Assembly (NCBI RefSeq): GCF_964275005.1
Contig: NC_092693.1
Coordinates: 17,985,706-18,049,705, forward strand
Reading direction: 5' to 3'
Length of the DNA stretch: 64,000 nt
Source: Diadema setosum
Lineage: Eukaryota > Echinodermata > Echinoidea > Diadematoida > Diadematidae
The position numbers and the translations under genes were made by a program. Shown in pieces: positions 7,778-57,801 of this stretch (position 1 is its first letter; each line of letters begins with the position of its first letter). The notes under the pieces were generated by a model that ran no database searches, was not told where the DNA came from, and saw only the letters and a list, made by a program, of their open reading frames with translations.

Positions 7778-7833
7778 ACCTTTCCGCAGTAAGGGCATAT
7801 GGGCATACTTGGGGCCTGGTGCTCAGGGCTCAA
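7778..7833 (-). CDS. PIP4P/TMEM55-like paralog L, second C-x2-C exon
   Basis: A 56-nt exon on the minus strand between the acceptor ...TTCAACAG and the donor GTAAGT. It starts in phase 0 and encodes LSPEHQAPSMPICPYCGK plus two bases. With the upstream exon it gives CPHC, 17 residues, CPYC, which matches the spacing of the paired C-x2-C zinc-ribbon in PIP4P proteins. The paralog M exon (36570-36622) has the same borders and keeps both cysteines but differs at about ten residues and one codon in length, whereas the adjoining intron is nearly identical. Membership in the family is inferred from cysteine spacing, phase and gene order. Confidence 0.65.
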
Positions 7834-8172
7834 CTGTTGAAGTAAGAATGACAGAAAAAGAGTGTTCAGTTTTTACTTATCTACAAAATGTCTACTGCCC
7901 AAATTGTAATAACCCAATATATCTCACTTTAATGAGCAACATGTGCGAAGAATACTGTTATCTATTTCTTGAACACTGCTGCCCCCCACAATCCAAAATG
8001 AAACATAAAATGTCACATTGGGTCTCTTTGTCTTTGATCTTCTCTATTTCAAAAGGGATGATAAGAATCACAGTAACCACAGGAAATCAGAGATTTGTCA
8101 TATCAAAACAGAAGATTCCTGACCTACTTTTGATTAAATTTTGTTCAAAAGAGGCAATTTTTTTTTTATTTG

Positions 8173-8777
8173 GATTTGATTTGATTTGATTTATTCTCTG
8201 TACGCCATTTTTTTTCAAATACATAAACTTTCTGTAATTTCATTAACAAAGTACAAAATAACGGTAGCATACTTTCAACAATTATCATCCTTTTCATCAA
8301 TTATACATTTCATCTGTAATATAATTACATGAGTAACATCTCAATAATTTGTATACAGAACGATTGCCAAGAATAAGCACAATGCTTGACTGTTTGGCAA
8401 CCGATAACAAATAACATTACAATGAAGAAACACAAGAGGGTCCAACATGATGCTCGTGGAATAATGGTTAGAGAGAGAGAGAGAGAGAGATAAGAATGGA
8501 AGGGGAGGAGACGATAAAAAACCTCCCGATACTATATAGTCTCGCCAGATCAGCTTGACATACCTACGTGTATGTACCTAGACACATACATACATGCACA
8601 TACTGTCTTTATACAAATAAGCTACAGTGATGTATTTACATAATAAGTGTTACTTTTGTCATGTAAAAGTTACATTGAATGAGAAAGAGAAGGAGAAGAA
8701 GACAAAAAGCAATCATCTATATACACAGCATAAGTTTCTACGTGCCCTTTCAGGGCATGATGTTATAGTGAACCATA
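8173..8777 (-). mobile_element. LINE 3' end inserted in copy 1
   Basis: Absent from copy 2, where ...TTATTTGATCATAATTAG is continuous near 38651. The insert is flanked by ATTTG (8168-8172 and 8778-8782). It begins with (GATTT)n, which read on the minus strand is an AAATC-repeat 3' tail after AATAAA, as in the LINE fragment ending near 40770. No intact frame. It contains a GA microsatellite at 8470-8490. Confidence 0.75.
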
Positions 8778-9040
8778 ATTTGATCATGATAAGTGACCAA
8801 CACCCTCCACGCCATTCTGAGCCAATTAAGTTGCACATGATCAAATCAATGTAATATGTTTGCAGGGTTGTCCGCAATCACATTACACAAAGGTTTGTGA
8901 CACCATCATTAGTAACTTTCAGGCCACCGAGGTATCCAAAAATACTAAAATGGAACAAAAAGACGCCACGAGATAAAATCTAAAACAGTTTTGCTTCTAG
9001 CTAGTGACTTTATGGCTATAGGTGTAGCAATAACCTTATA

Positions 9041-10199
9041 CAGTACTCTCCGCATAATCGGGTAGGCTCTGACAGAGCGTTTCTTACCAGATTAAGCGGA
9101 GTACCCGATTAACAGAAGAACACGTCTCATTCACATTTGACAGACACAATGGCCCGAATTCACGAAGGCGGTACAAATGAAACCATGGACAAAAACCATG
9201 GAGCGCCAAGTGTCGCACGGAATATTTCGTTACGAAATTGGTGATTTCGTCGACAAAATGACCGTTTCGTTAACGAAATTATCATTTCGTGGACGAAATG
9301 TTCATTTAGTTACAAAATGTTGTCATGTCGTCACAAAATAATCATTTCATTGACGAAATGACTGATTTCGTAACGAAATATTCCATACGACACTTGGCGC
9401 TCCATGGTTTTTGTCCATGGTTTAAACCATGGTTTCATTTGTACCACCTTCGTGAATTCGGGCCAATGTGTATGTACATGCATTGTACACTGCACCAAAC
9501 TCCTACACTGTATGCTAAACGAGCGTGCTTGCACGGCACGTTATACATACCTTACACTTGCTCAGTCACGAGCAATAATACACACTCTTTTTATGGACAA
9601 ATATGTCTTCAAAAAAAATTGTCGTTTGACTATGGACTCCTAGCTAAGAGGCAGGCGTTTTCTGAAATGAACATGTCTCTTTGCGTGCACTAGTCACCTA
9701 CCAAGTAGAACGTCGGGTTACTAACTTTTCGAGAAGTGACTGGGGAAAAGCAAAATTATGGAGCTGCATGGTGCATGGCCTGATTTTCGTTGCAAACTTC
9801 TCGTATTGTGAATGTTGTTGCGGAGCAAGTGTGTTCAACTCCTATCTGCCTATGCAATTGTGAGTGCCAGCTGCATATAATGTTCGTTTGCGTGTGGCAA
9901 GTCGGTACTGGTACATGTGTTTTCATGTTTTATCATTCCCAAATGATCGGTCTTCTTTGCAAATTAAGCACAGAATGCCATTAGCCGTGGAAAATTTGAC
10001 ACTCATGATTTCTTAAAGTGTTATATCTGTGATAAAATGTGGGTAGAAATTAGATTAGAAGAAAATTATTCACCCATTTATGCGGAGTGGCAACCCGTTT
10101 ATCAGGTAATTTTAATGTGCACTGGAACTGATTTTGACATTACTACCCAATTAAACGGAGTACCCGTTTAAGCGATACACGATTACGCGGAGAGTACTG
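9041..10199. mobile_element. pogo/Tigger-like DNA element, non-autonomous
   Basis: Ends are CAGTACTCTCCGCATAATCG and, inverted, CAGTACTCTCCGCGTAATCG. TA sits at both borders (9039-9040 and 10200-10201). Copy 2 lacks the element (around 38890-38900), confirming insertion. The TIR beginning CAGT plus a TA duplication is characteristic of pogo-type Tc1/mariner relatives. A second pair of inner blocks (ACCCGATTAA, ACCCGTTTAA) repeats the TIR motif. No transposase frame survives. It carries a nested foldback element at 9150-9465. It lies in the intron between exons 7778-7833 and 10440-10561. Confidence 0.85.
9150..9465. mobile_element. Nested foldback MITE with GGCCCGAATTCACGAA ends
   Basis: Arms of about 100 bp are inverted copies (GGCCCGAATTCACGAAGG / CCTTCGTGAATTCGGGCC), including paired CCATGGTTT blocks. 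The loop is a series of ATTTCGT..ACGAAAT units that are themselves palindromic. It lies within the pogo-like element. A divergent relative is at 63711-63925. Confidence 0.85.
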
Positions 10200-10439
10200 T
10201 ACTACCAGTAAAAGTGAGCATTTTGCAGATCTACATCACATCATGATAATATTTCAGGTTCTACACGCCAAATATACATTATGGGATCCTTCAACTAAGA
10301 CAAGAACAACAAAAACAACAACCAAAGCTGGTATGATAAACAAGGAGTGTTCGGAATGCTCTCCTGTAATTGTGAAATCACCACAATACACAACAGTAAA
10401 CAATGAGCGCAACCTGTAGCGAGGTGCACGTCTACTCAC

Positions 10440-10561
10440 AGGGAACTGCCCGTTGCAGTGGGGGCACACATAGTTCCTGGAGCGGGAAGACCTCGTCGGT
10501 GTTGTTGTGGTTGGGATATCCTGGGGGACCATCGCAGATTGCATGTTGATGATGCTGACTG
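10440..10561 (-). CDS. PIP4P/TMEM55-like paralog L, first C-x2-C exon
   Basis: A minus-strand exon of 122 nt between acceptor TTCTTGCAG and donor GTGAGT. It encodes SIINMQSAMVPQDIP, a Ser/Thr/Arg-rich linker, then NYVCPHCNGQFP, ending in phase 0. In PIP4P (TMEM55) proteins a similar IIN..-linker-C-x2-C block precedes the second C-x2-C. The paralog M exon at 39071-39189 shares splice sites, phase and both cysteines but has about 13 amino-acid replacements against three silent changes. The open frame continues upstream of the acceptor, so a longer exon is possible. Upstream exons were not recognised. Confidence 0.7.
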
Positions 10562-10673
10562 CTGCAAGAATGAGGAATTCAATAAGCTGGTGTTGGTAGC
10601 AGTTATAACACAACTAGAAGAAGAACAGTGTTAATGATGATAATGCTAATAATAACTGATGTTCATAAGATCA

Positions 10674-10733
10674 TCATTGTTATTATTATTATCATCTACA
10701 GTAGTAGTACAAGTAGTACAAGTAGTAGAAGTA

Positions 10734-10814
<81 letters not shown>

Positions 10815-10905
10815 ATAATAATAATAAGAAGAAGAAGAAGATGAAGAAGAAGGAGAAGAAGATGAAGAAGAAGAAGAAAAAGAATAAGAAGAATAACAAC
10901 TAGAA
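10674..10905. repeat. Compound microsatellite (AGT)n-(AAT)n-(AAG)n
   Basis: About 40 AGT units run from 10699 to 10815, then AAT and AAG/ATG units. Copy 2 has a shorter version at 39346-39505, so the tract expanded or contracted after duplication. The poly-Ser, poly-Val and poly-Leu open frames here are artefacts of the repeat. Confidence 0.95.
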
Positions 10906-11029
10906 AAGCACTCTGAGAGCGCAGACCTCCGCCAAGTATGCAGCTCATTTCCACCACTGATCTTGTTCTTCCATAGAGATATCAGTGATTTCCACCCATA
11001 GGTACTTATAGCGGAGGTAAAAATAGTGA

Positions 11030-12010
11030 TAAGACTAACTATGAATGTTCAAATTGTATTCTGGTTGACTTTACCTCAAACAACACTTAAAATGAATGAT
11101 GCACGCCTTGCTATTAAGGGCCGAGAAAAGTTTGCAAGTCTTACACTACCGCAGTCACTCAGATAAAATGTGCTGGAGCGATTGGCAACATTTATGTGAT
11201 GCACAGATGAATGTTGGTGATGGAGCCGTTTTAAAATGTTTTTTTTTTTCATTCAGTTGCTTCCTGGTGTACAGTGTTTAGACTCTACCATCAAACTTAG
11301 TTTATATCTGTAAACTGTACAATCATAGCATATATAGCTGGCATGTAGGCTTGTAGACATGGCAAGCTGGGTTCTCATTTCATTATTCACATCATACATG
11401 TAGTAAGTGTTTCAAGGAATAACAAGGAGTGGGTTACACTGTATCTGCTGAAACTAAAAGTGTTTATACAGATAGACTGTAATGCTTTGTTTTGTTAAAC
11501 TGCACTTTTTCCTCTTCTTTTTTGCTGGCAATCTGCCCAACTGTCTGGGAACAAAACACATTTGTGTGAAAAAAAAAAAACCACTGCAGAGACATGAAAG
11601 AAGAGTGGCAACTACATGTACACCAGAGCAGTTTACCCTCTGACCTTTGACCCATCTCATCAAACAAGAAGGTGTGATAAAAGACACGCCATCACAAAAC
11701 CTGCGTACTAAGACCCTGAACTGGCCCGCTGACTAAAAACACAATCAACAATGCATTTCTGAACTAGAAAAGATTTCATTTGTTTAACGCCACCTCGATC
11801 ATCAGAACATCCGAAAACACGGAGCCGTATCCGTCTTTTCAGAAAGGGAAACTAAATTCACACTTATTAATTATCTATGATGTTTTCCAACCTGTTCCAT
11901 AACCTTCAAGATATTTATGAGATACCAGGGGTACTATGATTTAAATGGCATCTCCTTCAGTCTTATTTACAATATATACATGAAGGATCTGGTAATCTCC
12001 TCTACTGACA
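11030..12010. other. Conserved non-coding part of the duplication
   Basis: Aligns with 39540-40245 and 42419-42630 of copy 2. It is interrupted in copy 2 by a LINE piece and a solo LTR, for which 11742-11775 is the empty site. The block 11090-11250 is especially similar between copies but has no consistent exon structure. Confidence 0.7.
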
Positions 12011-12690
12011 TGGATGTTGCTGGGAAGTCAGTTCAGGCGAGTCTTGACAAAGGCAGAGGACCAAATGAGTTAAAAGGGCATTTTTTTTTTTTTTTTTAAA
12101 TCTAAAACACATGTATTTTGGAAGAGGTTCATATGGCGGGTAAATCTCTAGGTGTAGGCGTAAGCTCACAAGGGTACAATCAAATTCTTATCGTGAACTT
12201 AACAAATGTGCTTCCAATATAGAACATGTAGGTTGTGCCAAAATGAAAATAATCTTTTAAACCAGCAGTTATCATCTATTTGAATTGAAGATATACTTAA
12301 GAAACTAATTGCTGATGACATGCTTTCTATAATAATAAAGATCTATAACTCTATACAATTCTACAGCTACCATGTTTACCAAATGAGAATGCAACAATCC
12401 TTTCTAACAACATCAGTGTAAATCATTCCATGAATGATAAAGAAGAGCATCATATATCTACCAATCCTACAATCCCAGAAATGGGAATGAGTGGGAGAAA
12501 ATATTGCACATCTAGGAATTCCTATTCGTCTCCTACACTATGGTATTATTAAGTGTTCACATACATAGAAGAATTGAGGGTCAGAAGAAGTTTATTTTCC
12601 TGACAAAATAGGAATATATAGATCAATAAACAAGAGTAATTGGTATAGTAGGCCCTATGGGTCATGTGAATGAGCAAAATGAACCAATAC
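12011..12690. other. Unassigned spacer downstream of the GPI fragment
   Basis: No match to copy 2. The next glucose-6-phosphate isomerase exon, expected here on the minus strand if the gene continued, was not found. A T run is at 12081-12098. Confidence 0.45.
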
Positions 12691-12694
12691 CAAC

Positions 12695-12823
12695 CTTGTG
12701 AAGGAGAATTAGCTCCATCTTGTTCGCCCCCATGCCAGCCTTCTCCAGCTCCGCCCTCGCCTCTTCTGGACTCTTCCCCAGCATCAGGGCCTCGGTCTGG
12801 GCCAGGAAGTTGGCCAGGAGAAT
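12695..12823 (-). pseudogene. GPI: Glucose-6-phosphate isomerase, exon fragment 3
   Basis: This 129-nt minus-strand exon, bounded by CTGCAG and GTTGGT, encodes [17 protein letters not shown] then an acidic helix ending LLHK. In GPI this follows the substrate-binding region and precedes the conserved C-terminal block. GPI interconverts glucose-6-phosphate and fructose-6-phosphate in glycolysis. The frame is intact and in phase with the upstream exon at 14271-14347. The remaining C-terminal exons are not seen anywhere to the left, and the upstream exon at 15220-15379 is broken, so the locus is probably a pseudogene fragment. Confidence 0.85.
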
Positions 12824-12829
12824 CTGCAG

Positions 12830-14265
12830 AGAACGACATCATAATAGGTTGATAAAATTATGTGCAAAAGTGATGACTTGAGAGATTGTGTTTGTGTTAA
12901 GGTGTGGAATAATTGCTGTGTAACTGTACAGTGTTACATTTTTTGTTATTGTTTTTGTTTCATGTGTGTGTGTGTGTTTGTGTGAGTGTTCACAAATGTT
13001 TGAATGGGTGTGTGAGCGGAGTGTATGGGTTTATCTTTACGTGTGTATGATGTGTATGTGTCGGTGTGTCGATATGCATGTGCATACTGACAATCATAAT
13101 TATCAATTCATAATTTTTTTTTAAACAATTGCCTTCCTACTTGCATTTTGATATGAAGGTACGTAATTATCATGTTTACGCTAGAATTGTTTTCATTATT
13201 GTTAAACATTACATATCTACATACATTTTTTTTTCATAATTGTTAAAACATTGCGTATCTACACACACATTTTTTTTCATAATTGTTCTACATCAATCAA
13301 TCAATCAGTCAATCAATCAATCAATCAGCAGAAGAAGGAGCAGCATGAAGGATTTAACTTTGACGGAAATGCCATCAAGTCCTGGAGACTACATTGCTGT
13401 GGTTTGGTGCTGCATACTAGTATTTTAATTGTTATATTCAGTATTCATCACATGTTCCATACTGTTCTTGCTGTTTTTGAAATTAAATGGAACAATGTCA
13501 TTGGCATTTTGCTCGAGAAAAAAAGGATGCAAATTAACATTTCACATACAAAAAAACCCAACTTATATTTTTTCAGGTTAGATTAGATTGTAATTGTGTT
13601 AATGAGCTTCATCTTATAAAGAATATCAAATTTATCAACCTTACCACTATATGAATTTAGGTTGTGTGTTATGTGTGAAACAAAAGAGGATAAGATTACG
13701 GAATTCAGACATCTTCTGCCTACTGTAAAAGTAGAAATTTTCGTGCACTTCGCGCAACCAGACGCTAGCGCAAAAAGAAAAAGCACGCAAATGATTTTGC
13801 ATGCCATATGTTCCAGTAGTTAATGTCTTGATTCTGTGGAATTAAAAACACACGAAATCCATCTTACCTGGCCGAACGCAAAAAATTACTCACACAAAAA
13901 TATCCACTTTTACAGAACTTCCGTATCAAAATATGGGGTTACGGCTTTCTCTTAAACAGAAGTGGAGATAGAAGATTAGCAGAAAGTGTGATGACAGGAA
14001 AGGGAAAAAGCCAGGTAGGGTCGTAGTGTTTCATATGGCAGACTGACAAATCCTCTTTCAAAAGGGCATCTATCAAGTCCTTCAACTTGAAATGAAAACT
14101 TCGCCCCTCTACTTAACTCCACATGCGAAGGTTGCACATGCCACAACTCTCACTGCAGGCACAAAGTTGTGGATTCACAACCATGGAGTTATAAGGACTT
14201 GCTCCATCAGACTCTTACTTGAACATGCATTTTGAGAATGGTTGCAAAATGGAGCTCATTTTCTC
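12830..14265. other. GPI-fragment intron with microsatellites
   Basis: Holds TG-rich sequence at 12960-13075 and an AATC microsatellite at 13291-13329. A short direct repeat (ATTGTTAAACATT...TATCTACA...CATTTTTTTTCATAATTG) lies around 13195-13285. No exon seen. Confidence 0.5.
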
Positions 14266-14270
14266 TTTAC

Positions 14271-14347
14271 CTCATAGTGCAGCCCTTCCTGGATGGGATT
14301 ATGGGTCTTGACAGGGGCGATGAAGTCGGCCGGAATCAGACCGGCAC
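14271..14347 (-). pseudogene. GPI: Glucose-6-phosphate isomerase, exon fragment 2
   Basis: A 77-nt minus-strand exon between CTTCCCAG and GTAAAG encoding AGLIPADFIAPVKTHNPIQ then EGLHYE. This matches the GPI stretch just after the HAFYQLIHQG block. It joins the upstream exon in phase (split Gly codon) and ends in phase 0 before ILLANF. It is intact by itself. Confidence 0.88.
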
Positions 14348-14359
14348 CTGGGAAGGGGG

Positions 14360-15200
14360 AAAAGATTGCAGAGAAGTCAGCAACTTCTTCCCCACTTGTA
14401 TACAGCAATTGCCTTTGGCTTACATCAAATAATAAAAAGCTTGTTGCAGTTAGAGATTCAGACGCACATAATCTATGTATTAATATCATGAGTTGCTATG
14501 CATTCACAATGAAAAAAAAAAAAATCAAGTTATTTTTACACACAGTCCTCTCAAGAATCTTGTATAATTGAGAAGTGACTATGCTTAGCACATGCTAAGT
14601 GCATACACATCTACAAAGCGCTTTCACTTAAATTTAGCATCTGTTACAGTCAACCTTTATAAACAGCTCATGATTACCTGTACTTGAGCAGCCTCTCCCA
14701 TGTACTTACTGCTATATTTTGATGAGTTATGATGCATTCATACTTGAGGGCAAATCATGATGTTCAGAACAATCCAGGAATTCTGAGTAATGTGGATTTC
14801 CTTATCCATCAAATCCAAGAACTACGTTTCTGTATTTTGGCTGTATCATTTTATTAGTGTTTCATATTAGGCATAGCACAATTTTTTCTTTTGCTTGAGC
14901 CCTCTCTTGTCCATATATAATCATATGTTTCTGTTCCAGAAATTCAATAGTCTCTAAATTGATATATATGTTTCTTAGACTGGCAACATATTTTAGAAGT
15001 ATTCACTATTCAAATTTCCTTTCAAAATAGGCAAAAACATGCACACTTATTTCTGATTCTGTGCAGTTTCAATGAATTTGGACAGTTCCAAGAATTCTTT
15101 CACCAATATGAAATATGCATTGAAATTCAGCAGGGCTAATTTCATGGTAACAATTTGATGATTTCAGCATCAAAATGATCTCAAGACTTGATCTGTTATA
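14360..15200. other. GPI-fragment intron
   Basis: AT-rich; no exon or repeat border recognised. Confidence 0.5.
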
Positions 15201-15219
15201 GAAAGGAGTAAGGTTGTAC

Positions 15220-15379
15220 CCTGGTGTATGAGTTTTTAGAAGGCATGATGGCCGTAGTACCAGGCTCCCCCCACCCCCCCCCCCCCCCCAGACGATGGGG
15301 CCCGTTTTGTAGTCAACTCGGCGGCCCAGCTGTGTGACATACTTGCAACTGGATTCCATGTCTTCCTGCTGGAAGTAGG
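15220..15379 (-). pseudogene. GPI: Glucose-6-phosphate isomerase, disrupted exon 1
   Basis: On the minus strand, after acceptor GCTTTGCAG, the exon reads [18 protein letters not shown] then [12 protein letters not shown], clear GPI. At about 15273-15290 it carries an insertion of T plus 16 G before the expected TGGGGGGAGCC (WGEPGT). One base is then missing at the Asn-Gly position, and the codon for Tyr in HAFYQLIHQG is TAA. The donor CAGG|GTAC and phase are still those needed for the next exon. The active-site Glu of GEPGT and His of HAF are recognisable, but three lesions make translation impossible. A sequencing error in the G run cannot explain the TAA. Confidence 0.88.
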
Positions 15380-15384
15380 CTGCA

Positions 15385-16205
15385 AAGCGTGTTGGCATAC
15401 AGTGTAAGAAGAATGGAGAAAAATGAATGAGACCAAGATGGTGAAAAGAGGTCAGTTGTAGTCTGTCTGTAGACAAACAGTAAAACACAAAGTGTACATT
15501 CTACTAGACCAAATGTCTTTCTTAAAGACTAATGGGAGATTTAATTGGGGAAATTATATGAAAAAGGCCAAGTAAGAGTAGAGGGAAATTTCTCCTGAAA
15601 CATATTATCAATATGATTTATTACACTATATTTGCGTCATTAAGAAATCACGGGTAAAAACTGATTTATTCACTTCAGCAATTTTTGCCCCGGAACAGCT
15701 GTCTTTTTCAAGCCATTAATCAATATGTCACACAAGGAATCAAACCCTATACAAGTACAGCAGTACACTGATGCCATCATTCATAAAGCACATAGTCATA
15801 CTAATTAGTATCACACATTACCTAGACACATGCACGTTATGTGAACTTTTTTGCTTGTTAGCTCATGAAACCCGAAAGTGGCCCCCCTCCCCCCCCCCCC
15901 CCCCCCCACTTTTGAAAGCGCTCCACCGGCCCTGAAGTGATTGTGGGAAATGCAGTGAAACTGGCCTAAAACAGAAGTTTCACAGCCTCCTACTACCTAG
16001 GCATCTGTGACGTCTTTGTCAACATAGCGTAGTGTTGGCGAGTATGGGGTTCTAACATGAGTTGATACATGAAAGCAAGTAAAAGTCTAGAAAGATTTTG
16101 TAATTTTATTTTTTGTTCCATGTAAGATAGATTAAAAAAGTAAGAATATACAAAAATTATAACAAACAATGTCCACATGCTTCACTTCATCTGTTAGTGT
16201 TTAGG
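15385..16205. other. Unassigned spacer with poly-C run
   Basis: Contains a C-rich run at 15883-15908. No upstream GPI exon (the THAMLPYDQY region expected next) was found. Confidence 0.5.
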
Positions 16206-22133: not shown

Positions 22134-23400
22134 CAGTGGCGTATCTAGGGGGGGTCAAGGGGGGCACGTGCCCCGGGCGCCACTCCTTGGGGGCGCAAAA
22201 AAAAACGAAAAAAAAAACGAAGAAGAAGAAGAAAAAAAGGAAAAAAAAACGAAGAAGAAGAAGAAAAAAAAAGAAAAAAGAAAAGGAGAAGAAGAAGAAG
22301 AAGAAGAAGAAAAAAAAACTCGCCCGGAAGGGGGGGAGGGAGAATGGTGGGGGGGGGGGGCAGAAAACCAAATCAAACAAGATCAAAACAAAACATGATG
22401 ATGACGCGGACAAAATGACAATGTTTATTGTGTTCACACAAAAATTCCATGTTCTGTGAGCTGAAATACAAAAATTTTCGGCTCGCTCGCTGCGCTCGCT
22501 CGCCAAACTTTATATAAAAAAGAAGGTAGAACAAAACGTGATGATGACAAAATGACAGTGTCTATTGTGTTCACACATGTCATTTTATATTTAGCAGGCA
22601 AAATGTTTCACGGAGCAGCGGCTGCAATTTCGGTCTGAAGCGATCGCCAATTGGATCAAAAGAAGGCGCCAACCATTTCGAACATACGGGGGGGGGGGGC
22701 GCAAAAAACCCCGAATCAAACGAGATAACAACAAAACGTAATGATGACGCGGAAATATACAAATTTCGCCTCACTCGCTCGTACTAATTTAGAGTATTTT
22801 TTTCAAGTCCTCATTTTGTTGGTATAAATCGTTATCTATAAGGCCGTCACTATATCTTGATTAGAATTGTAAGATTTAATAAGCTAAAAATGACAAGAGT
22901 TTCATGATTTGCAAGCTGAAATACAAAAATTTTCGGCTCGCTCGCTGCGCTCGCTCGCCAAAATTTATATAAAAAAAGATAAGAACAATACGTGATGATG
23001 ACGAGGACATATACAAATTTCAGCTCACTCGCGCACTAATTTAGAGTATTTTTTAAAGTCCTCAGTTTTTTGGCATAAATCGTTATCTATAAGGCCGTCA
23101 CTATATATCTTGATTAGAATTGTAAGATTTGGTAAGCAAAAAATGACAAGAATTCCATGTTTTGTAAGCTGAAATAAAAAAATTTTCAGCTCGCTCGCTG
23201 CGCTCGCTCGCCAAAATCTATCAAAATTCATTACATTTAAATCACCCTCAAAAGATCCCTTTTAAGTGCTTGAAAAAGCATCATGTGGACTTTGTTTAAA
23301 GTCCCTACCGGGATGGTGTTGGGGTTGAACACTTTTTCAGAAATTAGGGGCGCAATTTTCGTGCTTGCCCCGGGCGCCGTTTTCCCTAGATACGCCACTG
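22134..23400. mobile_element. hAT-like non-autonomous element, insertion 1
   Basis: Terminal inverted repeats CAGTGGCGTATCTAGGG / CCCTAGATACGCCACTG extend inward through GTGCCCCGGGCGCC. The 8-bp target duplication CAAGTACA is at 22126-22133 and 23401-23408. Eight-base duplications and a CAG start are hAT hallmarks. The interior is AAG/AAAC-rich low complexity, then tandem sub-units each containing GGCTCGCTCGCTGCGCTCGCTCGCC. No transposase. Copy 2 of the duplication lacks it. It lies just downstream of the paralog M stop. Confidence 0.93.
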
Positions 23401-23992
23401 CAAGTACAATATATATCTGTACAAAAGCTTCATTCACAGTCCATCATTCTTTCCCTGACCGCACCCTCTCTCCCTTGCTCTCTTGATTACATATGCATTA
23501 CAGCAAAGAAGTATGACCCATAAAAATGGATTTGACTGGTATGGCACGTGCAGATAATCAAATTTATTCTAAATTCAAAATCTTATTCTTGTCTTGCGCA
23601 GCACAAGGTATACCATCGAGCAAAGCAACTTTAATACAACTTACAACACGGGCTACAGCACTTGGCTTGGTATACGTACATTCCGCCAAAAATCACAGTT
23701 TCCTTGCACTAACTTGAGACCGATATGCATGGTTCATATTACACCTCACACGAGCTATAATATGGCTTAAACTTCAGGTAAATGTACACGCTTGTCAGAG
23801 ATCAATGCAATGTTTTCTTTGTCCTAATCAATATTTTCCGAGTAAGTCGACATGTTATTACTCATTTTCATTTACCAAAGATCACAGGCACATATAGATG
23901 ACTCGCTCAAATGGGATCAATGTAATTTAAGAAGGAAGTCTCATAATGTTTGATTTTTTTTTTTTCAGTTTTCACTCAACCACTCGTCGTCC

Positions 23993-24096
23993 CTACAAAT
24001 GAGTACCTGAGGTAAATTCGTTCTCGACTGCGCTGACCTTCATCCTGCCGTAATAGCATGATGCCACAAAATTCGAGAAAGCCACGATAAAGGCAC
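23993..24096 (-). CDS. PIP4P/TMEM55-like paralog M, terminal exon
   Basis: On the minus strand, acceptor TTAATCTAG is followed by GT GCC..., completing the Gly codon begun by the 55-nt exon at 28553-28607. It encodes AFIVAFSNFVASCYYGRMK, a hydrophobic membrane segment, then VSAVENEFTSGTHL and TAG. PIP4P proteins end in a second transmembrane helix followed by a CYWG-type motif and a short polar tail, as here. Paralog R has the equivalent exon at 53630-53727 with a 9-nt insertion and a different tail. An AATAAA-like signal lies further downstream on this strand near 23565. Confidence 0.75.
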
Positions 24097-24764: not shown

Positions 24765-26692
24765 CCCATTCCACAGAGATTTCTTCTCATCGGTCACCGT
24801 CGGAAGCAAAGTTTGATGTTTCCGGCCACCCATCAAAATGTATCCAGTCGCAGTCTGATGAATCCAGCGTGTGTTGGTTGACTATCGAGTCAGTCTCAGA
24901 CCTGTCGTGCGTGATCCTCACTGGACGATCTTACCTCACTGGATCACCCCGGTGTGTCTGACACTGACCTGATGGTCGACCATCACAAGTCGGATTCATC
25001 AGACTACCATCCGACACACTTCGGTGGGTGGCCTGAAGCAAGAAACTCTGCTTCAGACGAGTGACCAATGAGAAAAAAACATTCTAAAGGCCCGGTCCCA
25101 CTGCACTTACGGATGCAAAGAGTATGTAAAGCGTACAAAAAATCTTGCCATCCGTTGGAAAACGCTACGAATCCGCTGTGTACCCATCGCATACGTGTTT
25201 CATCCGCTCTATCCATCGATCATCCGTCCACTGTGATTTCAAGGCCCGGTCCCACTGGCCGACGGACACAAAGCGTATGCAGAGAGGACACAGCGGACGA
25301 GCAAAATTTCGGGGATGGCTTCATCCGCTTTCATCCGCTCCAGAAATTGACAAAATTGGCGAAAATTGGCGGTAACAGAACGGAAATAGAACGGACGTGG
25401 GTAGTATGTAGCGGGGATGTTAAACGGATGTTCATCGGAAGCCTAGCGGATGAAAGCGGATGGAAGGGGATGACAGCTCCGACGGGGTTACCGGAGATAA
25501 TTGCGAAACGGACGCATAGCAGAAAAAGCGGATGCAGAGTGGATGCAGAGCGGATGCAGAGCGGATGCAGAGGGGATGCTTTCGAAATGCTTTATATACG
25601 AGATGCATACGCTTACATCCTTTCTATTAACGTGCTATTAACGATGTAAAGACGTTCCACGTACCATATCTTTCCTCCCTCTTTCCGTTTTTAGCTGCAG
25701 CGGATGTGAGTTGCGAGGATGCCCAGAGGATGCAGAGAGGATGCAGCGGACGCTTAAGGGATGCCGCACGGACATACAACGTTTGTTGCTCGTATGTCGC
25801 GGATTTACATCGTACACAGCGGAAAGTTCATCCGTTCTAAAAGTTTTAAGCAGCTTAAAACTTTTTGCGCGGATGAAATCACAGTGGACGGATGCTCGAT
25901 GGATAGAGCGGATGAAACACGTATGCGATGGGTACACAGCGGATTCGTAGCGTTTTCCAACGGATGGCAAGATTTTTTTGTACGCTTTACATCCTCTTTG
26001 CATCCGTAAGTGCAGTGGGACCGGGCCTTCATCCGCGCAAAAAGTTTTAAGCTGCTTAAAACTTTTAGAACGGATGAACTTTCCGTTGTGTACGATGTAA
26101 ATCCGCGACATACGAGCAACAAACGTTGTATGTCCGTGCGGGATCCCTTAAACGTCCGCTGCATCCTCTCTACATCCTCTGGGCATCCTCGCAACTCACA
26201 TCCGCTGCAGCTAAAAACGGAAAGAGGGAGGAAAGATATGGTACGTGGATCGTCTTTACATCGTTAATAGCACGTTAATAGTGAGGATGTAAGCGTATGC
26301 ATCTCTTATATAAAGCATTTCGAAAGCATCCCCCTGCATCCGCTCTGCATCCGCTCTGCATCCACTCTGCATCCGCTTTTTCTGCTTTGCGTCCGTTTCG
26401 CAATTATCTCCGGTAACCCCTTCGGAGCTGTCATCCCCTTCCATCCGCTTTCATCCGCTTTCATCCGCTAGGCTTCCGATGAACATCCGTTTAACATCCC
26501 CGCTACATACTACCCACGTCCGTTCTATTTCCGTTCTGTTACCGCCAATTTTCGCCAATTTTGTCAATTTCTGGAGCGGATGAAAGCGGATAAAACCATC
26601 CCCGAAATTTTGCTCGTCCGCTGTGTCCTTTCTGCATACGCTTTGTGTCCGTCGGCCAGTGGGACCGGGCCTTTTGGAATGGGAGTATAAGT
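24765..26692. mobile_element. Outer foldback MITE (CCCCATTCCA ends) hosting a nested element
   Basis: CCCCCATTCCACAGAG at the left is inverted at the right as TTGGAATGGGAGTAT. The left part (24765-25087) itself folds: GGATTCATCAGACT, GTGTGTC and ATTGGTCACTCG-type blocks are inverted between 24780-24870 and 25000-25070. The rest is the GGCCCGGTCCCAC complex inserted near its right end. Confidence 0.7.
25088..26676. mobile_element. Composite GGCCCGGTCCCAC foldback element
   Basis: Two interleaved inverted repeats: arm A 25088-25233 is inverted at about 25870-26030, and arm B 25234-25870 is inverted at about 26030-26676. Both families start AAGGCCCGGTCCCACTG. Arm B carries tandem GGATGCAGAGC and GGATGAAAGC units. 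A single B-type arm also occurs at 59930-60355. Open frames on both strands are mirror images and not genes. Confidence 0.88.
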
Positions 26693-28552: not shown

Positions 28553-28607
28553 CTGCCCAGAAAACGGAGATACCTCCCAAGAGTTGGCCTGGGAGATATG
28601 TTCCAAC
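28553..28607 (-). CDS. PIP4P/TMEM55-like paralog M, 55-nt exon
   Basis: Between acceptor TATCATTTAG and donor GTAAGT on the minus strand, 55 nt encode VGTYLPGQLLGGISVFWA plus one base. The preceding exon (34232-34334) ends ...GIGVN in phase 0, giving GIGVN-VGT, comparable with the GVGLT-VGT at the end of the first transmembrane helix in PIP4P. The leftover G joins the terminal exon in phase. The paralog R exon (57747-57801) has identical length and borders but 14 of 55 bases differ, 13 of them replacing amino acids, while introns on both sides differ by about 5%. Confidence 0.72.
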
Positions 28608-34231: not shown

Positions 34232-34334
34232 ATTGACTCCAATGCCAACAACCAGAAAGATGATTCCTGTTACAGCATGCACGTTGCGACGGTTTTTGAC
34301 GAAGCTGGGTCCATCCGCGTACTTATGTACAGAT
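34232..34334 (-). CDS. PIP4P/TMEM55-like paralog M, first transmembrane exon
   Basis: A 103-nt minus-strand exon between CTCACCAG and GTAAGT. After one base completing the previous codon it encodes SVHKYADGPSFVKNRR then NVHAVTGIIFLVVGIGVN, that is, a basic patch followed by a membrane helix, ending in phase 0. PIP4P proteins have an RRR patch, then a helix of the type TIGMICIFIGVGL, directly after the second C-x2-C. Joined to 36570-36622 it gives CHYCRK-ASVHKY. It lies left of the recognisable start of copy 2, so no paralogous copy is present for comparison. Confidence 0.72.
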
Positions 34335-36927: not shown

Positions 36928-38610
36928 CAGTGGCGTATCTAAGGGGGGGGGGCAAGGGGGCACGTGCCCCGGGCGCCACTCCTTGGGGGCGCAAAAAAAA
37001 AAAAACGAAAAAAAAAAAAGGAAAAAAAAACGAAGAAGAAGGAAAAAAAAAAGGGAAAAAACGAAGAAGAAGAAGAAGAAGAAAAAAAAAAAAACTCGCC
37101 CGGAAGGGGGGAGGGAGAATGGTGGGGGGGGGGGGGCAGAAAACCAAATCAAACAAGATAAAAACAAAACATGATGATGACGCGGACAAAATGACAATGT
37201 TTATTGTGTTCACACAAAAATTCCATGTTCTGTGAGATGAAATACAAAAATTTTTGGCTCGCTCGCTGCGCTCGCTCGCCAAAATCTATATAAAAAAGAA
37301 GGTAAGAACAAAACGTGATGATGACAAAATGACAGTGTTTATTGTGTTCACACATGTCATTTTATATTTAGCAGGCAAAAATGTTTCACGGAGCAGCGGC
37401 TGCAATTTCGTTCTGAAGCGATCGCCAATTGGATCAAAAGAAGGCGCCAACGGTTTCGAACATACGGGGGGGGGGCGCAAAAAACCCCGAATTAAACAAG
37501 ATAACAACAAAACGTAATGATGACGCGGAAATATACAAATTTCGGCTCACTCGCTCGCACTAACTTAGAGTATTTTTTCAAGTCCTCATTTTGTTGGTAT
37601 AAATCGTTATCTATAATGCCGTCACTATCTTGATTACAATTGTAAGATTTAATAAGCAAAAAATGACAAGAGTTTCATGATTTGTAAACTGAAATACAAA
37701 AATTTTCGGCTCGCTTGCTGCGCTCGCTCGCCAAAATTTGTATAAAAAAAAAGAGAAGATAAGACCAAAACGTGACGATGACGCGGACAAAATGATAATG
37801 TCTATTGTGTTCACTCATGTCATTTTATATTTAGCAGGAAAACTGTTACACGGAGCAGCGACTGCAATTTCATTCGTTCTGAAGCGATCGCCGATTGGAT
37901 CAAAAGAGGACGCTAACGGTTTCGAACATACGGGGGAGGGGGGCGCAAAAAAATCAAAAAAGATAAGAAAAAAAACGTAATGACGCAGAAATATACAAAT
38001 TTCGGCTCACTCGCTCGTACTAATTTAGAGTATTTTTTCAAGTCCTCAGTTTTTTGGTATAAATCGTTATCTATAAGGTCGTCACTATAATTGTGAGATT
38101 TAATAAGCAAAAAATTACAAGAATTCCATGTTTTGTAAGCTGAAATACAACAATTTTCGGCTCGCTCGCTGCGCTCGCTCGCCAAAATTTATATAAAAAA
38201 GATAAGAACAATACGTGATGATGACGAGGACATATACAAATTTCAGCTCACTCGCGCGCACTAATTTAGAGTTTTTTAAAGTCCTCAGTTTTTTGGTATA
38301 TATCGTTATCTATAAGGCCGTCAATAGAATTGTAAGATTTGGCAAGCAAAAAATGACAAGAATTCCATGTTTTGTAAGCTGAAATACAAAAATTTTCGGC
38401 TCGCTCGCTGCGCTCGCTCGCCAAAATCTATCAAAATTCATTACATTTAAATCACTCTCAAAAGATCCCTTTTAAGTGCTTAAAAAAGCATCATGTGGAC
38501 TTTGTTTAAAGTCCCTACCGGGATGGTGTTGGGGTTGAACACTTTTTCAGAAATTAGGGGCGCAATTTTCGTGCTTGCCCCGGGCGCCGTTTTCCCTAGA
38601 TACGCCACTG
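36928..38610. mobile_element. hAT-like non-autonomous element, insertion 2
   Basis: Same family as 22134-23400: CAGTGGCGTATCTA...TAGATACGCCACTG ends and internal GCTCGCTCGCTGCGCTCGCTCGCC repeats. The 8-bp duplication CCTACATT is at 36920-36927 and 38611-38618. Copy 1 at about 8130-8145 shows the empty target (CCTACTTTTGATT). It is about 416 bp longer than insertion 1, apparently through an extra internal unit (AGCAGGCAAAATGTTTCACGGAGCAG...CGAACATACGGGG), present twice here and once there. It lies in the intron of paralog M. Confidence 0.94.
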
Positions 38611-39070
38611 CCTACATTTGACTGAATTTTGTTCAAAAGTGGCATTTTTTTTATTTGATCATAATTAGTGTCCAACAGCCTCCATGCCATTCTGACCCTT
38701 GCACATGATCAAATTAATGTACGTGTTTGCAGGTTAATTGTCAGCAATCACATTACACAAAGGTTTGGGAAGCCATCATTAGTAACTCTCAAGCCACTGA
38801 GGTATCAAAAAATATTAAAATAAAACAAAAAGACGACACGAGATAAAATCTAAAACAATTTTGCTCTTAGACAGTGGCTTTATGGCTATAAGATGCAGTG
38901 TTACCAGTAAAAGTGAGCATTCCTTGGATCTACATTACGTCGTGATAATATTTCAGGTTCTACACACCAAAGATGCATTATGGGATCCTTCAACTAAAGC
39001 AAGAACAATAAAAACAACAACCATAGCAGGCAGGATTAAACAAGGAGTGCTTGGAATGTTTTCTACTTAC

Positions 39071-48070: not shown

Positions 48071-49043
48071 CAGTGTAATGTCAAAAGATTTGACTTAAAT
48101 TCTTTTCATGCACATATATATGTCTATAAGGCGAGGAAAACGTAATTATCCCTTCACTTTCGGGATAATTAATGCCTAAGCTGCCTGTAGTTTCCTAAAA
48201 AAAAGATAAAGTTGCTGAATTTGTAAATTCATCGTTTTAGTCTGCCTGTAACAAATCTATAATGCTTCCACCTTTAGTCTCCAGTTCAAAATATTTAAGG
48301 TTAGTTACTGGAACTTTAATTTCTCATAGAAGACAAAGGATGCCTTGTGAAAGAGAACTAATACCATCATGTAATGACTAAGATAACACCATAAATTCAC
48401 AAGGAACCAATTACGTGAATTAACTGCTAGCAATGAGGCTAAGATGTCTTTGGCCGTCAAAGACGGAGAGGTTTTTAAAACCGTAATCTTTTAAGCCTTC
48501 TGTTGATTGGTACACTGTACTCTGATACTATATGGAGATTGGGAGACTATAGATTACATGGCTGGAATGGCCACAATCTACACACCAGCACACACAATGA
48601 CAAATGTGCAACTATAATTCTACTAAAAAACTCCAACAAACTGACCTCCACACATATGCACAATATGTAGTTGAAAACACACCACTTTCTCATGTATCTC
48701 TTCATTCTGAGCAGTTCATTAATGATGACAAGTTTGAGTGCCTTTCATTTTTCAATACGATCATTTTAATTGTTAAGTAATAGTACCAACAATGTGATGG
48801 TAAAACATAAAATTGAGCAAAAGAATATTTAAATTGAGAAAAAAATTGTACTGCCCTCAGTAAAGCCATGCAAATCAAATATCTACATGCATACAGAAAA
48901 GCTGCTTACACATAATTACGCCTAATATCACAGATGATTGTCACGTATGTACAATTCCTACAGTAAGAATCTATGATCAATGACCCCGAGTTTAAAAAAT
49001 TGTACAAATTCTACACTGATTTTAACAATAACACTGATTAGTA

Positions 49044-49576
49044 CACTGTAAAAACATCGGTTTTAGATTTAACACCACGGGTGTTAAATCTAATACCGAT
49101 CAAACTTCAATAAAGGACCACACCCACAGGTGTTAAAAATGCACTGTGATGGTGTTGAAAAGTGTTCACCTGACACTTCGTGGTGTTAATTTGACACTGT
49201 ACCTGGTGTTATTTTGACACTGTACTGGTGTTAATTCAAAAATGACACCACATGGTGTTGATTTGATATTTGCTGGTGTTAATAACAATGGTTTAACACC
49301 CGTCCAGCTTCAATAAGGGACCACACCAACTGGTGTTACTTTGGTGTAAATTTATTTTCACATTTTTTTCAAAAATCTAGTATTTTAATGTAAAATTCTT
49401 GATCGTCTTGTTTAAATTAAAAACCAACAAGAAGTGCAGTTACTAAGAAACTCTTCAAAAACACAGTTTAAAATTTGGAAATGACACCCGTAGGTGTTAA
49501 TTTGACACCATAAATGAGCACCGAAAATTTAACACCAGCTCGGTGTTCACTATTTAACACCGGACTTTTTGCAGTG
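49044..49576. mobile_element. CACTGTAAAAA MITE, copy 1 of 3
   Basis: Ends CACTGTAAAAACATCGG and CCGGACTTTTTGCAGTG, TA at both borders. The empty site is visible in segmental copy 1 at about 20676 (GATTAGTGATTTCAG). The interior is full of GGTGTTAA/TTAACACC units that fold into short hairpins. No frame. Confidence 0.93.
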
Positions 49577-49664
49577 TAATTTCAGTTTGATTGTTCTCAG
49601 CGACATTTGCAGGTGCTTTGCAAAAGCCAAAGTGTCTTTTTTACACTTAATGTATTCTGCATTT

Positions 49665-53629: not shown

Positions 53630-53727
53630 TTAATAGAGTACGTTCTCGACTGAGCTGACCTTCTTAAAGCTCATGCAGCCGTAGTAGCATGATGCCACAA
53701 AATTCAGGAAAGCCACGATGAAGGCAC
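53630..53727 (-). CDS. PIP4P/TMEM55-like paralog R, terminal exon
   Basis: Equivalent of 23993-24096: acceptor TCAATCTAG, then GT GCC and AFIVAFLNFVASCYYGCM, SFKKVSSVENVLY, TAA. The membrane segment and CYYG are kept. Three codons are inserted after GCM and the tail is shorter. It splices in phase to the 57747-57801 exon, 4 kb upstream on this strand. Further upstream exons of paralog R would lie beyond 57.8 kb; none was recognised before the window end. Confidence 0.72.
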
Positions 53728-53844: not shown

Positions 53845-54090
53845 AGACAGATTCACAGATACAGACACAAATACACAGAAACTGTGACACAGGCACAGAC
53901 AGAGTCACTGACATACAGAGTCCCAGAACAGGCATAGATACAGACACACTCACAGTCACAGATACACATAAACATGATGCAGACACAGATAAGTCACAGA
54001 CAGACATACACAAACATAACCACAGACACAGACATGCATAGATACAGACTCACACACAGTCACATGCAGATACAGACATTGACACACACC
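53845..54090. repeat. CACAGA-type microsatellite, copy 2
   Basis: Uninterrupted counterpart of the tract at 24190-24387. Confidence 0.85.
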
Positions 54091-54243
54091 CCCCGTATTC
54101 CCCTCCCACATCCTCCTCCAACACACTTTCCTGAATATATATTTGTCTTGCTTCTTTGACAGAAAAAAAAATGAAAATTTCACCAATAGGGTGCATCAGA
54201 TCTCTGAATTTCAAGTCTGAAAATACAAAAATCTCCCTCGTGT

Positions 54244-56784
54244 CCCAGAAGGAAAAACCAGTTACAACCATTTGGAAATTTCAACTGGTTCTAGTTACAT
54301 GCAACTGGTTCCAGTCGACTTTAACTGGTCTTTAATGCATATCAAGTGGACAATCGGTACGAGTACATGGGATTTTACCGGAACCAGTCCCCACAACCAG
54401 TTGATAACTGGTCTGTACCCATGTTTCCAGTTGCACCATTTACACCAGTACAAACCAGTAAACAATTCTAACTAATATCTATACTGGTTTAACTGGTCTT
54501 CACTGGTTGCAACTGGTACCAGTTACAACCAGTTGGAAATTTCAACTGGTTCCAGTTGATTTTAACTGGAAACAGTTATCTGCAACTGGTTCCAGTTGAC
54601 TCTGTAACTGGTCTCTAATGCATATCAAGTGGACAATCAGTACGAGTACATAGTACTTGATAGGAACCAGTTCCCACAACCAGTTGATAACTGGTCTGTG
54701 CCCATGTTTCCAGTTGCACCAGTTGCATCAGTATACAAACCAGTAAACATTTTTAACTGGTCTCTACTGGTTTAACTGGTCTTCACTGGTTGCAACTGGT
54801 ACCAGTTGAAACCAGTTGATATGTTGATGTCATACTGGTAGTACAAGTTTATACCACTTGAAGTTGCACTGGTTACCAGTTGATACCACTTGATCAAAAT
54901 CGTATTATGTGTACAAGTTGATACCAGTTGAGGTCTTGCTGGTACCAGCTGATTCTAGTCCAAGTCTCACTGGGTACCATTCAGTTAATACCAGTTGAAA
55001 CAATTGAGTGGAATAAACCAGCACACTAGTAACCTAAAAAGATATTATACTGTGGCAGCTGAATCCAGCTGAAAAAAAGTGGATAAACTGCATGGCCAAT
55101 TGTACACCAGTCTGAACATTATATATATTCAATTTTCATGCAGTTGACTAAAAAAAAAATTGAAATTAAACAAAATTAATAAACTGTCACACCCACACTT
55201 ACAAGTTGCCTCTAGAACATTTCAAAGCTGGGAAATTTCATACCAGCTGGTATTACTAATAAACATTCAAAGCAAAGAAAAAACAAACAAACAAACAAAG
55301 CATTGAAACATTCTTTGAAATAAAAAACGGATCCTTGTGGTAAAAGTGAATTCAGTTGGCATAAACTGAAGTCAGTTGACATTCCAACTAGCAAACTACC
55401 CACGTACTATGTGTAGATTATGTATGTACGTTTTCTTGTGTGTGTGTGTGTGTGTGTGTGTGTGGATGGGTGTGTGTGTACACTGTAAAAACTTCGGTGT
55501 TAGATTTAACACCATGGGTGTTAAATCTAACACCGATCAAACTTCAATAGAGGACCACACCCACAGGTGTAGAAAATGTACTGTGACGGTGTTAAAAAGT
55601 GATCGCCTGGCACTTCGTGGTGTTAATTTGACACTGTGCCTGGTGATATTTTTGACTCTGCGCTAGAGTTAATTCAATAATGACACCGCATGGTGTTGAT
55701 TTGATATTGGTGGTGTTATTTTCAATGGTATAACACCCGTCCAGCTTCAATAGGGGACCACACCAACTGGTGTTACTGTGGTGTAAATGTATTTACAAAT
55801 TTTTTTTTTTCAAAAATCAAGTACTTTATCGGAAAATTCTTTATCGTCTTGTTGAAGTTCAAAATTAACAAGAAGTGCAGTAACTAAGAAACTATTCAAA
55901 AAACAATTTTAAATTTTGAAATGACACCCGGAGGTGTTAACCTAACACCATGAATGAGCACCGGAAATTTAGCACCAGCTCGGTGTTTCATATTTAACAC
56001 CGGACTTTTTGCAGTGTAAGTGTATGTGGCAATTTGTGTGTAAACAGTTTGTTGACACTTGAAAGCCATGTACCTGACTGGGCTTGCTTGGTAATTACCA
56101 GTTTATTCCAGAGTAAAACCCATTAACCATAATACCAGTTGATTCCAGTTGGTTTCTACTGGTTTCTACTGGTCATGCATATTCATAAGCTATTCAAATT
56201 CTCTTGGAATGGAAATAGATAAAATATAGTTAAAATTGTTTCTATGACTATAATAAACTTTCAACTGTGTTAAAAATTTCATTCAATATTATCGTTGTGT
56301 TATTCACAATTTCAATTTGTGTTATGAGGACGCATTTTCATTTTTTAATATTAAAAGTGTAGTTACTTGGTAATCACGTCTTAAGGCATTATAACAAAAT
56401 GGCCCTATATAAGTGAATGTGATGTAGTACCAACTAGGCAGTGTTGTTATTATACATCTGCAGGTTTAGGCTCTAAGACTAGCTGTAGGATTATGATTGT
56501 GAATGGTTATTTGAATATTGATGTCTTCACATACATGTACATCCTATGTGTGTTCTGGTATATGTTCAAACATCAACATACCTCGAGAAACTATTAATTT
56601 TGTCAACGCCGGGATCCCAGCTAATTCCAGTTGACTGGAAACCAGTTGAAAGGTAACTGGTTTTGTATACTGGTCCAGTTAAAAAGGTAACTGGTTTTGT
56701 ATATTGGTCCACTGGTAACTGGTAACTGGTAACTGGTTGATTTGAACTGGTTCAACTGGTCCAGTTGTAGCTGGCATTTCCTTC
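54244..56784. mobile_element. 2.5-kb foldback element composed of AACTGG/CCAGTT motifs
   Basis: Inserted between units of the 150-bp tandem; copy 1 is uninterrupted near 27842. Outer ends CCAGAAGGAAAAACCAG and, inverted, GGAAGGAAATGCCAG. Possible CGTG-type flank duplication. Nearly every 10-15 bp holds AACTGGT or ACCAGTT. Three units of about 261-283 bp repeat from 54257, 54518 and 54801. It hosts a CACTG MITE (55481-56016) and a GT microsatellite (55436-55464). 56019-56620 has few motifs. No gene. Confidence 0.82.
55481..56016. mobile_element. CACTGTAAAAA MITE, copy 2 of 3
   Basis: TIRs CACTGTAAAAA / TTTTTGCAGTG, TA borders (55479-55480, 56017-56018), 536 bp. Nested in the AACTGG foldback element. 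Confidence 0.93.
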
Positions 56785-57141
56785 CGTGGTGGAAGGGGGG
56801 TATCCCCCTCCCGAGCCCTCCCCTGCCTTTTTCCTTGAATACTACTCTATTTCTTCTTACATTTTTGATAAAAACAAAAGTGAATAATCTTACCAAAATG
56901 TGCACTATATCTCTGTATTTCAAGCCTGAAAATGCAAAAATCTCCCTCTTGTGGGAGGATACCGCTCCCCTTTCTCGGTCGCTCCTGTGGGCCCTCACAG
57001 ATATCTTCAAAGTCCCCCCCCCCCCCCCCTCATTTTGCACCATTTCATATTTGCTTGCAATATATCAAAAGAGCTTACAAAGAAACTTACATGTACCTGG
57101 TTGATGCGATTTGCCTGGATGACGAGTTGTTTTGGAGTATT

Positions 57142-57410
57142 TTGAGATCAAAGATACATAGAATAATAAAAGTCGGTATACCGACTTTTATTCCAGAAAG
57201 ATCCAGGCTAACTCAGTCTCGGGGACAACTCTGCCCTATTTCAGACAATTTACACGCAGTTCGTGATCACCAGATAGAGGCACACGTTCGTTTTGTATGC
57301 GTGCCGAAGAGGTTCTCTGACGCACACATTGTATTAACATAGCCATGATAGCTGCAACTAGCCAGAACACGAAGCGCTCCCATAGTACAACACTGTGCAA
57401 TTCAAAGGGA
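57142..57410. other. Copy-2-specific insert with a perfect palindrome
   Basis: Absent in copy 1 at about 28207. Contains the 28-bp perfect palindrome at 57165-57192 (half AATAAAAGTCGGTA). The remainder is unique and non-repetitive. Confidence 0.7.
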
Positions 57411-57746
57411 CAACTCGGCCGTCAGTCAAAGCGAGGCCGAGTTGTCCCCGAGTCCGAGTTAAATGTAGCTTGACCCCGATCAAGTAAGGTCTGAGAATAC
57501 AACTCCGTCGAACCTTTTTGGTTAATATTTCCCATTTTCGTCATTACCCAATAAATATCTTTATATTCCAGCACTATTCCACACAATTCTTAGGCAAACA
57601 TGTACACTTTGGAGTGAAATTTGACAATTCTGCAGGCGTACTGGGAGTATGCTTTACCCTTAAGTCTATACTGCAGTATAAGCCTATTTCAGTCTTTTTG
57701 CACAGAAGGGCCAAACCCAAATCTTGCACATCTCTCCAAAACTTAC

Positions 57747-57801
57747 CTGTCCTGACAACGTAAATACCTTCCAAGTGTGAGGCTAGGCGCTCTGTTCCAA
57801 C
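57747..57801 (-). CDS. PIP4P/TMEM55-like paralog R, 55-nt exon
   Basis: Acceptor TATCATTTAG, donor GTAAGT, phase 0 to 1 as in 28553-28607. Encodes VGTERLASHLEGIYVVRT plus G. Same length as paralog M, VGT and the final split Gly kept, but 11 of 18 residues replaced and only one clearly silent change. The replacement of hydrophobic residues by charged ones would weaken the membrane segment, so decay is a possible alternative to selection. Confidence 0.68.

Follow-up and report, generated by a model that had tools for sequence, protein, structure and literature searches.

Truncated tandem copies of a PIP4P/TMEM55 gene in the sea urchin Diadema setosum, with exons moderately more divergent than introns

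A 64,000-nucleotide (nt) stretch of the Diadema setosum genome (C9:17985706-18049705; hereafter the window) overlaps a tandem array of three N-truncated copies of a PIP4P/TMEM55 gene, designated L, M and R. The anatomy of the array is real, and its orderly origin is through partial duplication. Splice signals and reading frames of the three daughter copies are intact, and their exons differ from one another about 1.5-2 times as much as the neighbouring noncoding sequence. This excess is real yet moderate, and it hints at selection without proving it. Diversifying selection on some codons is plausible, but it is unproven and sensitive to the treatment of the data. We propose, with a probability of roughly 0.45, that after partial duplication the daughters were kept as small membrane proteins, that some of their codons were pushed to change, and that they act as endolysosomal partners or competitors of the parent.

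The array and its parent gene

Positions are given in window coordinates, extrapolated past both window ends. The intact parent gene lies 31-54 kb right of the window edge and consists of eight exons, from ~117,887 to ~95,500, that encode 274 residues; its protein is 83% identical to the Lytechinus protein overall and is a complete member of the family PF09788. The parent, R, M and L are all on the minus strand and follow one another in that order, with the three daughters downstream of the parent and extending from 81,375 to 53,630 (R), from 39,189 to 23,993 (M) and from 10,561 to -3,386 (L). Each daughter corresponds to the parent's last five exons, referred to as C1, C2, TM1, E55 (the 55-nt exon) and the last exon, which encode RING3 and two membrane helices (TM1 and TM2). 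The parent, the first three exons of R and the last three exons of L are outside the window. Translated from MQSAM onwards, the joined exons of L give exactly the sequence of an annotated NCBI Diadema setosum protein, P0001. An original prediction, made from the letters of the window, had described the exons with their splice sites and phases as well as four cysteines, and all of these are present; neither the parts outside the window nor the truncation of all three copies was visible from those letters. The exons of the daughters are as follows.

7778..7833, minus strand: copy L, exon C2, second C-x2-C of RING3; AG/GT, in frame, an exact match to P0001
10440..10561, minus strand: copy L, exon C1, first C-x2-C of RING3, with the start Met of P0001
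-960..-864, -2141..-2099 and -3386..-3313, minus strand: copy L, remaining three exons, left of the window
23993..24096, minus strand: copy M, last exon with stop, TM2 and tail
28553..28607, minus strand: copy M, E55, with the end of TM1, the loop and the start of TM2
34232..34334, minus strand: copy M, TM1 exon; the joined M protein matches PF09788
36570..36622, minus strand: copy M, exon C2
39071..39189, minus strand: copy M, exon C1, longer by one base at its start than C1 of the parent
53630..53727, minus strand: copy R, last exon with stop
57747..57801, minus strand: copy R, E55
65650-65752, 80385-80437 and 81275-81375, minus strand: copy R, other exons, right of the window

When P0001 was searched against the genome, eight of the 13 matches listed had E<0.01 and all eight fell inside the array, while the two matches outside it had E values of 0.83 and 5.7; this search does not list every array exon, and diverged copies elsewhere could escape it.

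Truncation of the daughter copies

The daughters are without everything ahead of the CKRIINL junction, namely the N-terminus, RING1, RING2 and the Cx5R motif. A tblastn search with the Lytechinus protein P0089 (E up to 0.05, 194 kb) located the exons for residues 1-144 of the parent solely in the parent and beside none of the daughters, and no convincing N-terminal exon was found within the window. The PF09788 profile, run over the genome, gave two matches, both to N-terminal exons of the parent; the profile also missed the short C-terminal exons of the array, so that it is of limited sensitivity here.

Parent exon 3 stops two bases into a codon, and the third base is given by the parent's C1. 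In R, M and L, C1 carries one additional base at its start, and joining it to parent exon 3 shifts the frame and leads to stops in all three. In-frame splicing to parent exon 3 is therefore excluded, and the daughters are separate units at these exon edges. Since the extra base is common to R, M and L, truncation probably preceded tandem copying. This order agrees with the intron distances, which are 0.110-0.136 among the daughters and 0.19-0.22 to the parent. The Met of AMVPQD is retained in all three daughters, and P0001 begins four residues earlier. By eye, the base that follows this Met is T in the parent and G in every daughter (Val instead of Phe in the daughters). The G occupies +4 of the ATG, and truncation may have been followed by a better start context.

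Family membership and predicted proteins

The joined M protein matches PF09788 (Tmemb_55A) with 74.8 bits (cut-off 30; model positions 129-248). With this match and with the parent gene nearby, the original assignment to the PIP4P/TMEM55 family proved right. The R fragment (50 residues) scored 17.5 bits, under the cut-off, and for the L fragment (58 residues) PF09788 was not among the best 25 of 33 family matches. An early doubt about the family, raised when human PIP4P2 gave no convincing homology to the window, was overruled by the match of M. A sequence search of the PDB with M found nothing relevant.

Exon translations and hydropathy place two RING3 C-x2-C pairs and two membrane helices in the parent and in each of R, M and L. 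In the AlphaFold2 model of P0001, helices span residues 63-89 and 96-121, with a mean predicted local distance difference test score (pLDDT) of 73.6 and a predicted template modelling score (pTM) of 0.50; the hairpin is good and RING3 is poor. The daughters share with PIP4P1 and PIP4P2 (TMEM55B and TMEM55A, PF09788) the C-terminal half, IIN...AM followed by C-x2-C...C-x2-C and two helices. However, their RING3 and linker sequences are strongly altered in addition to the loss of the parts described above, and identity to Lytechinus in this half is 87% for the parent and 47-59% for the daughters.

In human TMEM55B, adaptors are described as binding via RING1-RING2, with RING3 predicted to be membrane-proximal (PMC12393467). 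TMEM55B is reported to recruit JIP4 to lysosomes and to dimerise; in the same account, the authors judge it no bona fide 4-phosphatase, and mutation of Cx5R left lysosome clustering intact (PMC5691037). A literature search combining PIP4P/TMEM55 with sea urchin, echinoderm or gene duplication gave no TMEM55 or PIP4P term among the matches listed.

Divergence of exons and introns

We compared exon and other positions within the same high-scoring segment pairs (HSPs), that is, those covering both exon and intron, with exon limits taken from the first-named copy and with daughter pairs that share branches. The exon excess was 1.92-fold for R/M (79/401 against 356/3464, p=1.6e-7), 1.57-fold for R/L (63/389 against 351/3409, p=8e-4) and 1.63-fold for M/L (62/319 against 367/3073, p=3e-4; TM1 is not covered in this pair). 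Between the parent and the daughters the corresponding ratios were only 1.18, 1.08 and 1.09, none of them significant. When codon-aligned exons were compared with separately aligned introns, the daughter pairs gave ratios of 1.66-2.38 (block-resampling p from 0.0015 to 5e-5), or 1.66-2.06 with near-gap columns dropped; for the parent pairs the values were 1.27-1.43 and, with such columns dropped, 1.14-1.25. Triplets with multiple differences show little preference for the codon frame, being only slightly more frequent there than in the two alternative frames. The last exon shows no excess between M and R (10/96 against 88/737).

The original prediction held that exons diverge much faster than introns, the latter differing by about 5%. 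An excess of 1.57-1.92 between daughters bears out its direction, but "much faster" overstates it: in the window alone, with intron rates matched for base context, 60 exon differences stand against 44.3 expected (p=0.014). The figure of 5% does not hold either. Typical intron divergence is 12.9% for L/M (503/3904) and 11.3% for M/R (196/1740), and values of 5% or less are found only in some exon-adjoining stretches of ~50 bases. For single exons, the count given for E55 between M and R (14 of 55 bases, with 11 residues replaced and one silent change) was reproduced exactly. In C1 of L/M, replacement changes number 17.7 (over 89 sites) and silent ones 5.3 (over 28 sites), rather than 19 and three. 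In C2 of L/M, said to be replaced at most non-cysteine positions, nine of 17 aligned residues differ, and silent changes are denser (4-5 of ~11 sites) than replacements (10 of ~40).

Intact frames and conserved helices

All 15 acceptors of the daughters have AG and all 12 donors have GT. The copies are open to their stop for 135 (R), 143 (M) and 129 (L) codons, and none of the three is broken. Between daughters, the lengths of the four internal exons differ by 18 and 3 bases in C1, 3 in C2, 6 in TM1 and 12 in E55. Each of these values is divisible by three, as against a fraction of only 0.13-0.21 of the intron indels. Taken together, the intact splice signals, open frames and triplet length differences indicate that the daughters do not look like decaying copies. 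Two related counts say less: the zero exon frameshifts, set against 6.0-6.2 expected, are built into the codon alignment, and the absence of stops in the exons has P=0.15 under neutrality and is weakly informative. A nucleotide alignment of the last exon of M and R contains one 5-base gap near the tail.

Helix residues, with limits taken from Lytechinus, vary less than the others between L and M (10/42 against 42/80, p=0.0036), and the same comparison for M/R gives 5/23 against 12/24 (p=0.07). Helix limits drawn post hoc had given p=6e-6 and were set aside in favour of the Lytechinus-derived ones. Of the residues conserved in seven deuterostome relatives, L retains 33 of 61, M 39 of 68 and R 18 of 25 in the part tested. 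Differences between M and R show a weak trend away from such positions (6/25 against 11/22 at other positions, p=0.06).

Tests of selection

By the counting method of Nei and Gojobori (NG86), the replacement distance dN is 0.24-0.28 and the silent distance dS 0.23-0.36 among daughter pairs, with intron distances K of 0.11-0.136. Summed over the daughter pairs, 13 of 113 fourfold sites in unchanged codons are different (5/37, 2/35 and 6/41), close to the introns (1102/9931). A comparison of the site models M1a and M2a favours a class of fast codons (p=3.3e-4), with 24% of codons at an omega (dN/dS) of 3.9, and the result persists on the 117 gap-free columns (p=0.004). For E55 of M/R alone, the best of four exons tried, omega is 6-10 with a likelihood-ratio test p of 0.012; in the R/L and M/L pairs, silent and replacement densities of E55 are similar (3/10.7 and 10/31.3; 2/10.3 and 7/31.7). 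Helix codons have an omega of 0.64 against 1.02 for the rest (p=0.017), and the rest is not above 1 (p=0.90). On the parent branch omega is 0.64, not significantly different from that of the daughters (p=0.27). With branch lengths fixed at intron values omega rises to 1.9, but free or scaled lengths fit far better. The exons that are doubled within the window alone gave a pairwise omega of 1.02 (p=0.94), and the picture changed once the parent and the missing exons were added.

The diversifying selection suggested by the original prediction thus finds a foothold in E55 of M/R and in M2a, and its proposed check of dN/dS against intron divergence with a site model does reveal a fast codon class, but the mean dN/dS is about 1 and the M2a signal fades with gap removal or free multinucleotide rates. 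Nothing in the analysis speaks for the arms race that it also suggested.

Several results weigh against selection for change and against the retention of all three daughters as proteins. The mean dN/dS among daughters is about 1, at 0.79-1.07 by counting and 1.01 by maximum likelihood. The NG86 silent divergence exceeds that of the introns, and twofold sites are likewise high (16/115). Relative to intron-based branch lengths, those estimated from codons are longer by a factor of 2.1 with a single omega (equality rejected, p=8e-6), of 1.9 with M2a (p=1.6e-4) and of 1.4 once multinucleotide rates are left free (p=0.09). On the 80 columns more than two codons from gaps, M2a gives p=0.06, and with freely fitted multinucleotide rates it gives p=0.3 (0.53 on the 80 columns). 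A forced alignment of 120-nt flanks leaves no exon excess, with ratios of 0.91, 1.08 and 0.93 for the daughters (0.62-0.71 for the parent pairs); by eye, these flanks include unalignable stretches, which we judge to have inflated their divergence. A free DNA alignment lowers the exon mismatch to 0.188, 0.140 and 0.166 through cancelling gaps. In it, the exons contain 4 (R/M), 7 (R/L) and 13 (M/L) non-triplet gaps that cancel within exons, so that compensating indels may feed the codon-aligned excess. In addition, differences between L and M do not avoid the deuterostome-conserved positions (27/61 against 25/61), and L alone was found as an annotated protein in searches restricted by length range and shared words.

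Alternative explanations

Many of these points are what relaxed constraint by itself would produce. According to this explanation, the daughters drift near dN/dS = 1 except in helices and cysteines, and the apparent excess comes from clustered multi-base changes, compensating indels, base context and the alignment of gaps. The mean dN/dS, the loss of M2a significance under free multinucleotide rates, the smaller excess after matching for base context, the forced flank alignments and the cancelling gaps all agree with it, and we give it a substantial, if minor, share of the probability. However, the multinucleotide rate fitted to the exons, 0.108, exceeds both the 0.0075 measured in introns and the upper bounds on the latter, 0.015-0.05 depending on the daughter pair, and M2a remains significant at the pooled intron rate (p=3.4e-4) and at the upper bound of 0.05 (p=0.014). 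Moreover, drift alone should give exons and introns the same divergence. The elevated silent distances would also be accommodated if gene conversion had homogenised the introns while conversion of exons was selected against, leaving the exons with an older divergence, silent sites included. NG86 dS is above the intron distance in all six pairs, codon branch lengths are about twice the intron ones, and the M/L silent distance of 0.356 is similar to the parent distances, though the M/L introns are as close as those of R/L. Yet fourfold sites in unchanged codons, as noted above, equal the introns, and we regard this history as unlikely.

That the copies are decaying pseudogenes is very improbable. 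They are truncated, their mean dN/dS is near 1, many canonical residues have been lost, and stop-free exons are only weakly unexpected under neutrality; against this stand the intact acceptors, donors and frames, the triplet length differences, the conserved helices and the annotation of L as a protein. Least probable of all, with hardly any chance of being right, is a single gene with four alternative 3' cassettes, in which the daughters' exons would be spliced to parent exons 1-3. The shared strand and order, the parent 5' exons leading the array and intact C1 acceptors in all four copies fit such a gene, but the extra base in C1 of every daughter refutes it for the exon edges described here.

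Proposed origin and role

The reading that we prefer is partial duplication followed by retention and change. The last five exons of PIP4P/TMEM55 would have been copied downstream, with one base gained at the start of C1, and two further tandem copies would have followed; the anatomy, the shared base and the distances are observed, and the order of events is deduced from them. The daughters would then have been kept as small membrane proteins of 120-134 residues from the AMVPQD/AMVPQDT Met, each with a RING3 zinc knuckle and a two-helix hairpin; the open frames are observed and translation is presumed. Without the partners of the parent's RING1-RING2, soluble and loop segments may have lost constraint and some codons were probably driven to change, while helices and the four cysteines would have been retained. 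The two-rate pattern is an observation, and positive selection is supported as its cause, though not secure. The likeliest role would be in the endolysosomal membrane, where the daughters may pair or compete with the full-length protein and thereby tune dynein-adaptor recruitment; the simplest inference is that a daughter partners or competes with the parent in the membrane. Since the copies are without the adaptor-binding half, an arms race is no more natural a reading than interference with the parent or neofunctionalisation. A stronger version is rather unlikely: that the headless paralogs are expressed endolysosomal proteins under recurrent diversifying selection on the zinc knuckle and luminal loop, and that, as decoys or by modifying where lysosomes are positioned, they take part in a conflict (over pathogen-vacuole or gamete/skeletogenic traffic) new for TMEM55.

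Accelerated segment switch in exons (ASSET) has been described in snake-venom multigene families, in which introns are more alike than exons and short exon segments change while the fold stays (PMC2474615, PMC2711939). As in those families, the exons of the daughters are more divergent than their introns; in contrast, the daughters are not secreted toxins, their excess is ~1.6-1.9-fold, the mean dN/dS is near 1 and there are only four genes. In sea urchins, SpTrf/185-333 is a diversified immune family of secreted proteins with many copies. It resembles the daughters in having tandem echinoid copies with exon diversity, and differs from them in protein type, in secretion and in copy number. Should the daughters prove to be expressed and under selection for change, they would represent a natural split of the TMEM55 membrane/RING3 half from its adaptor platform, which would help to ask what that half does by itself, and venom-like exon evolution inside a housekeeping lysosomal family. 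If they are merely relaxed, the parent and three truncated copies with alignable introns form a clean array for separating positive selection from multinucleotide and alignment artefacts.

Other elements in the window

Upstream of C1 of L, glucose-6-phosphate isomerase (PF00342) is represented by three exon-like pieces (E 2e-7, 0.021 and 6.4e-7) on the minus strand at 12690-15400 (limits by eye), and no matching block is listed in M. The piece near 15.3 kb enters a poly-G tract and, by eye, does not keep its frame, so this is probably a gene fragment. A transposase remnant at 57990-58760 on the plus strand, presumably Harbinger-like, matches DDE_Tnp_4 (PF13359) across two frames. A ~540-bp repeat occurs in three copies that are 86-92% alike (49042-49579, 55479-56019 and 60738-61276). 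Meanwhile, a ~1.4-kb palindromic element at 25241-26673 has arm pieces that are 97-99% complementary, and part of it recurs near 60.04-60.35 kb. A related interspersed repeat of tandem subunits is found in the L/M spacer (22134-23401) and in the C1-C2 intron of M (36928-38611); its copies are 88-98% alike, suggesting that they are probably younger than the surrounding duplications.

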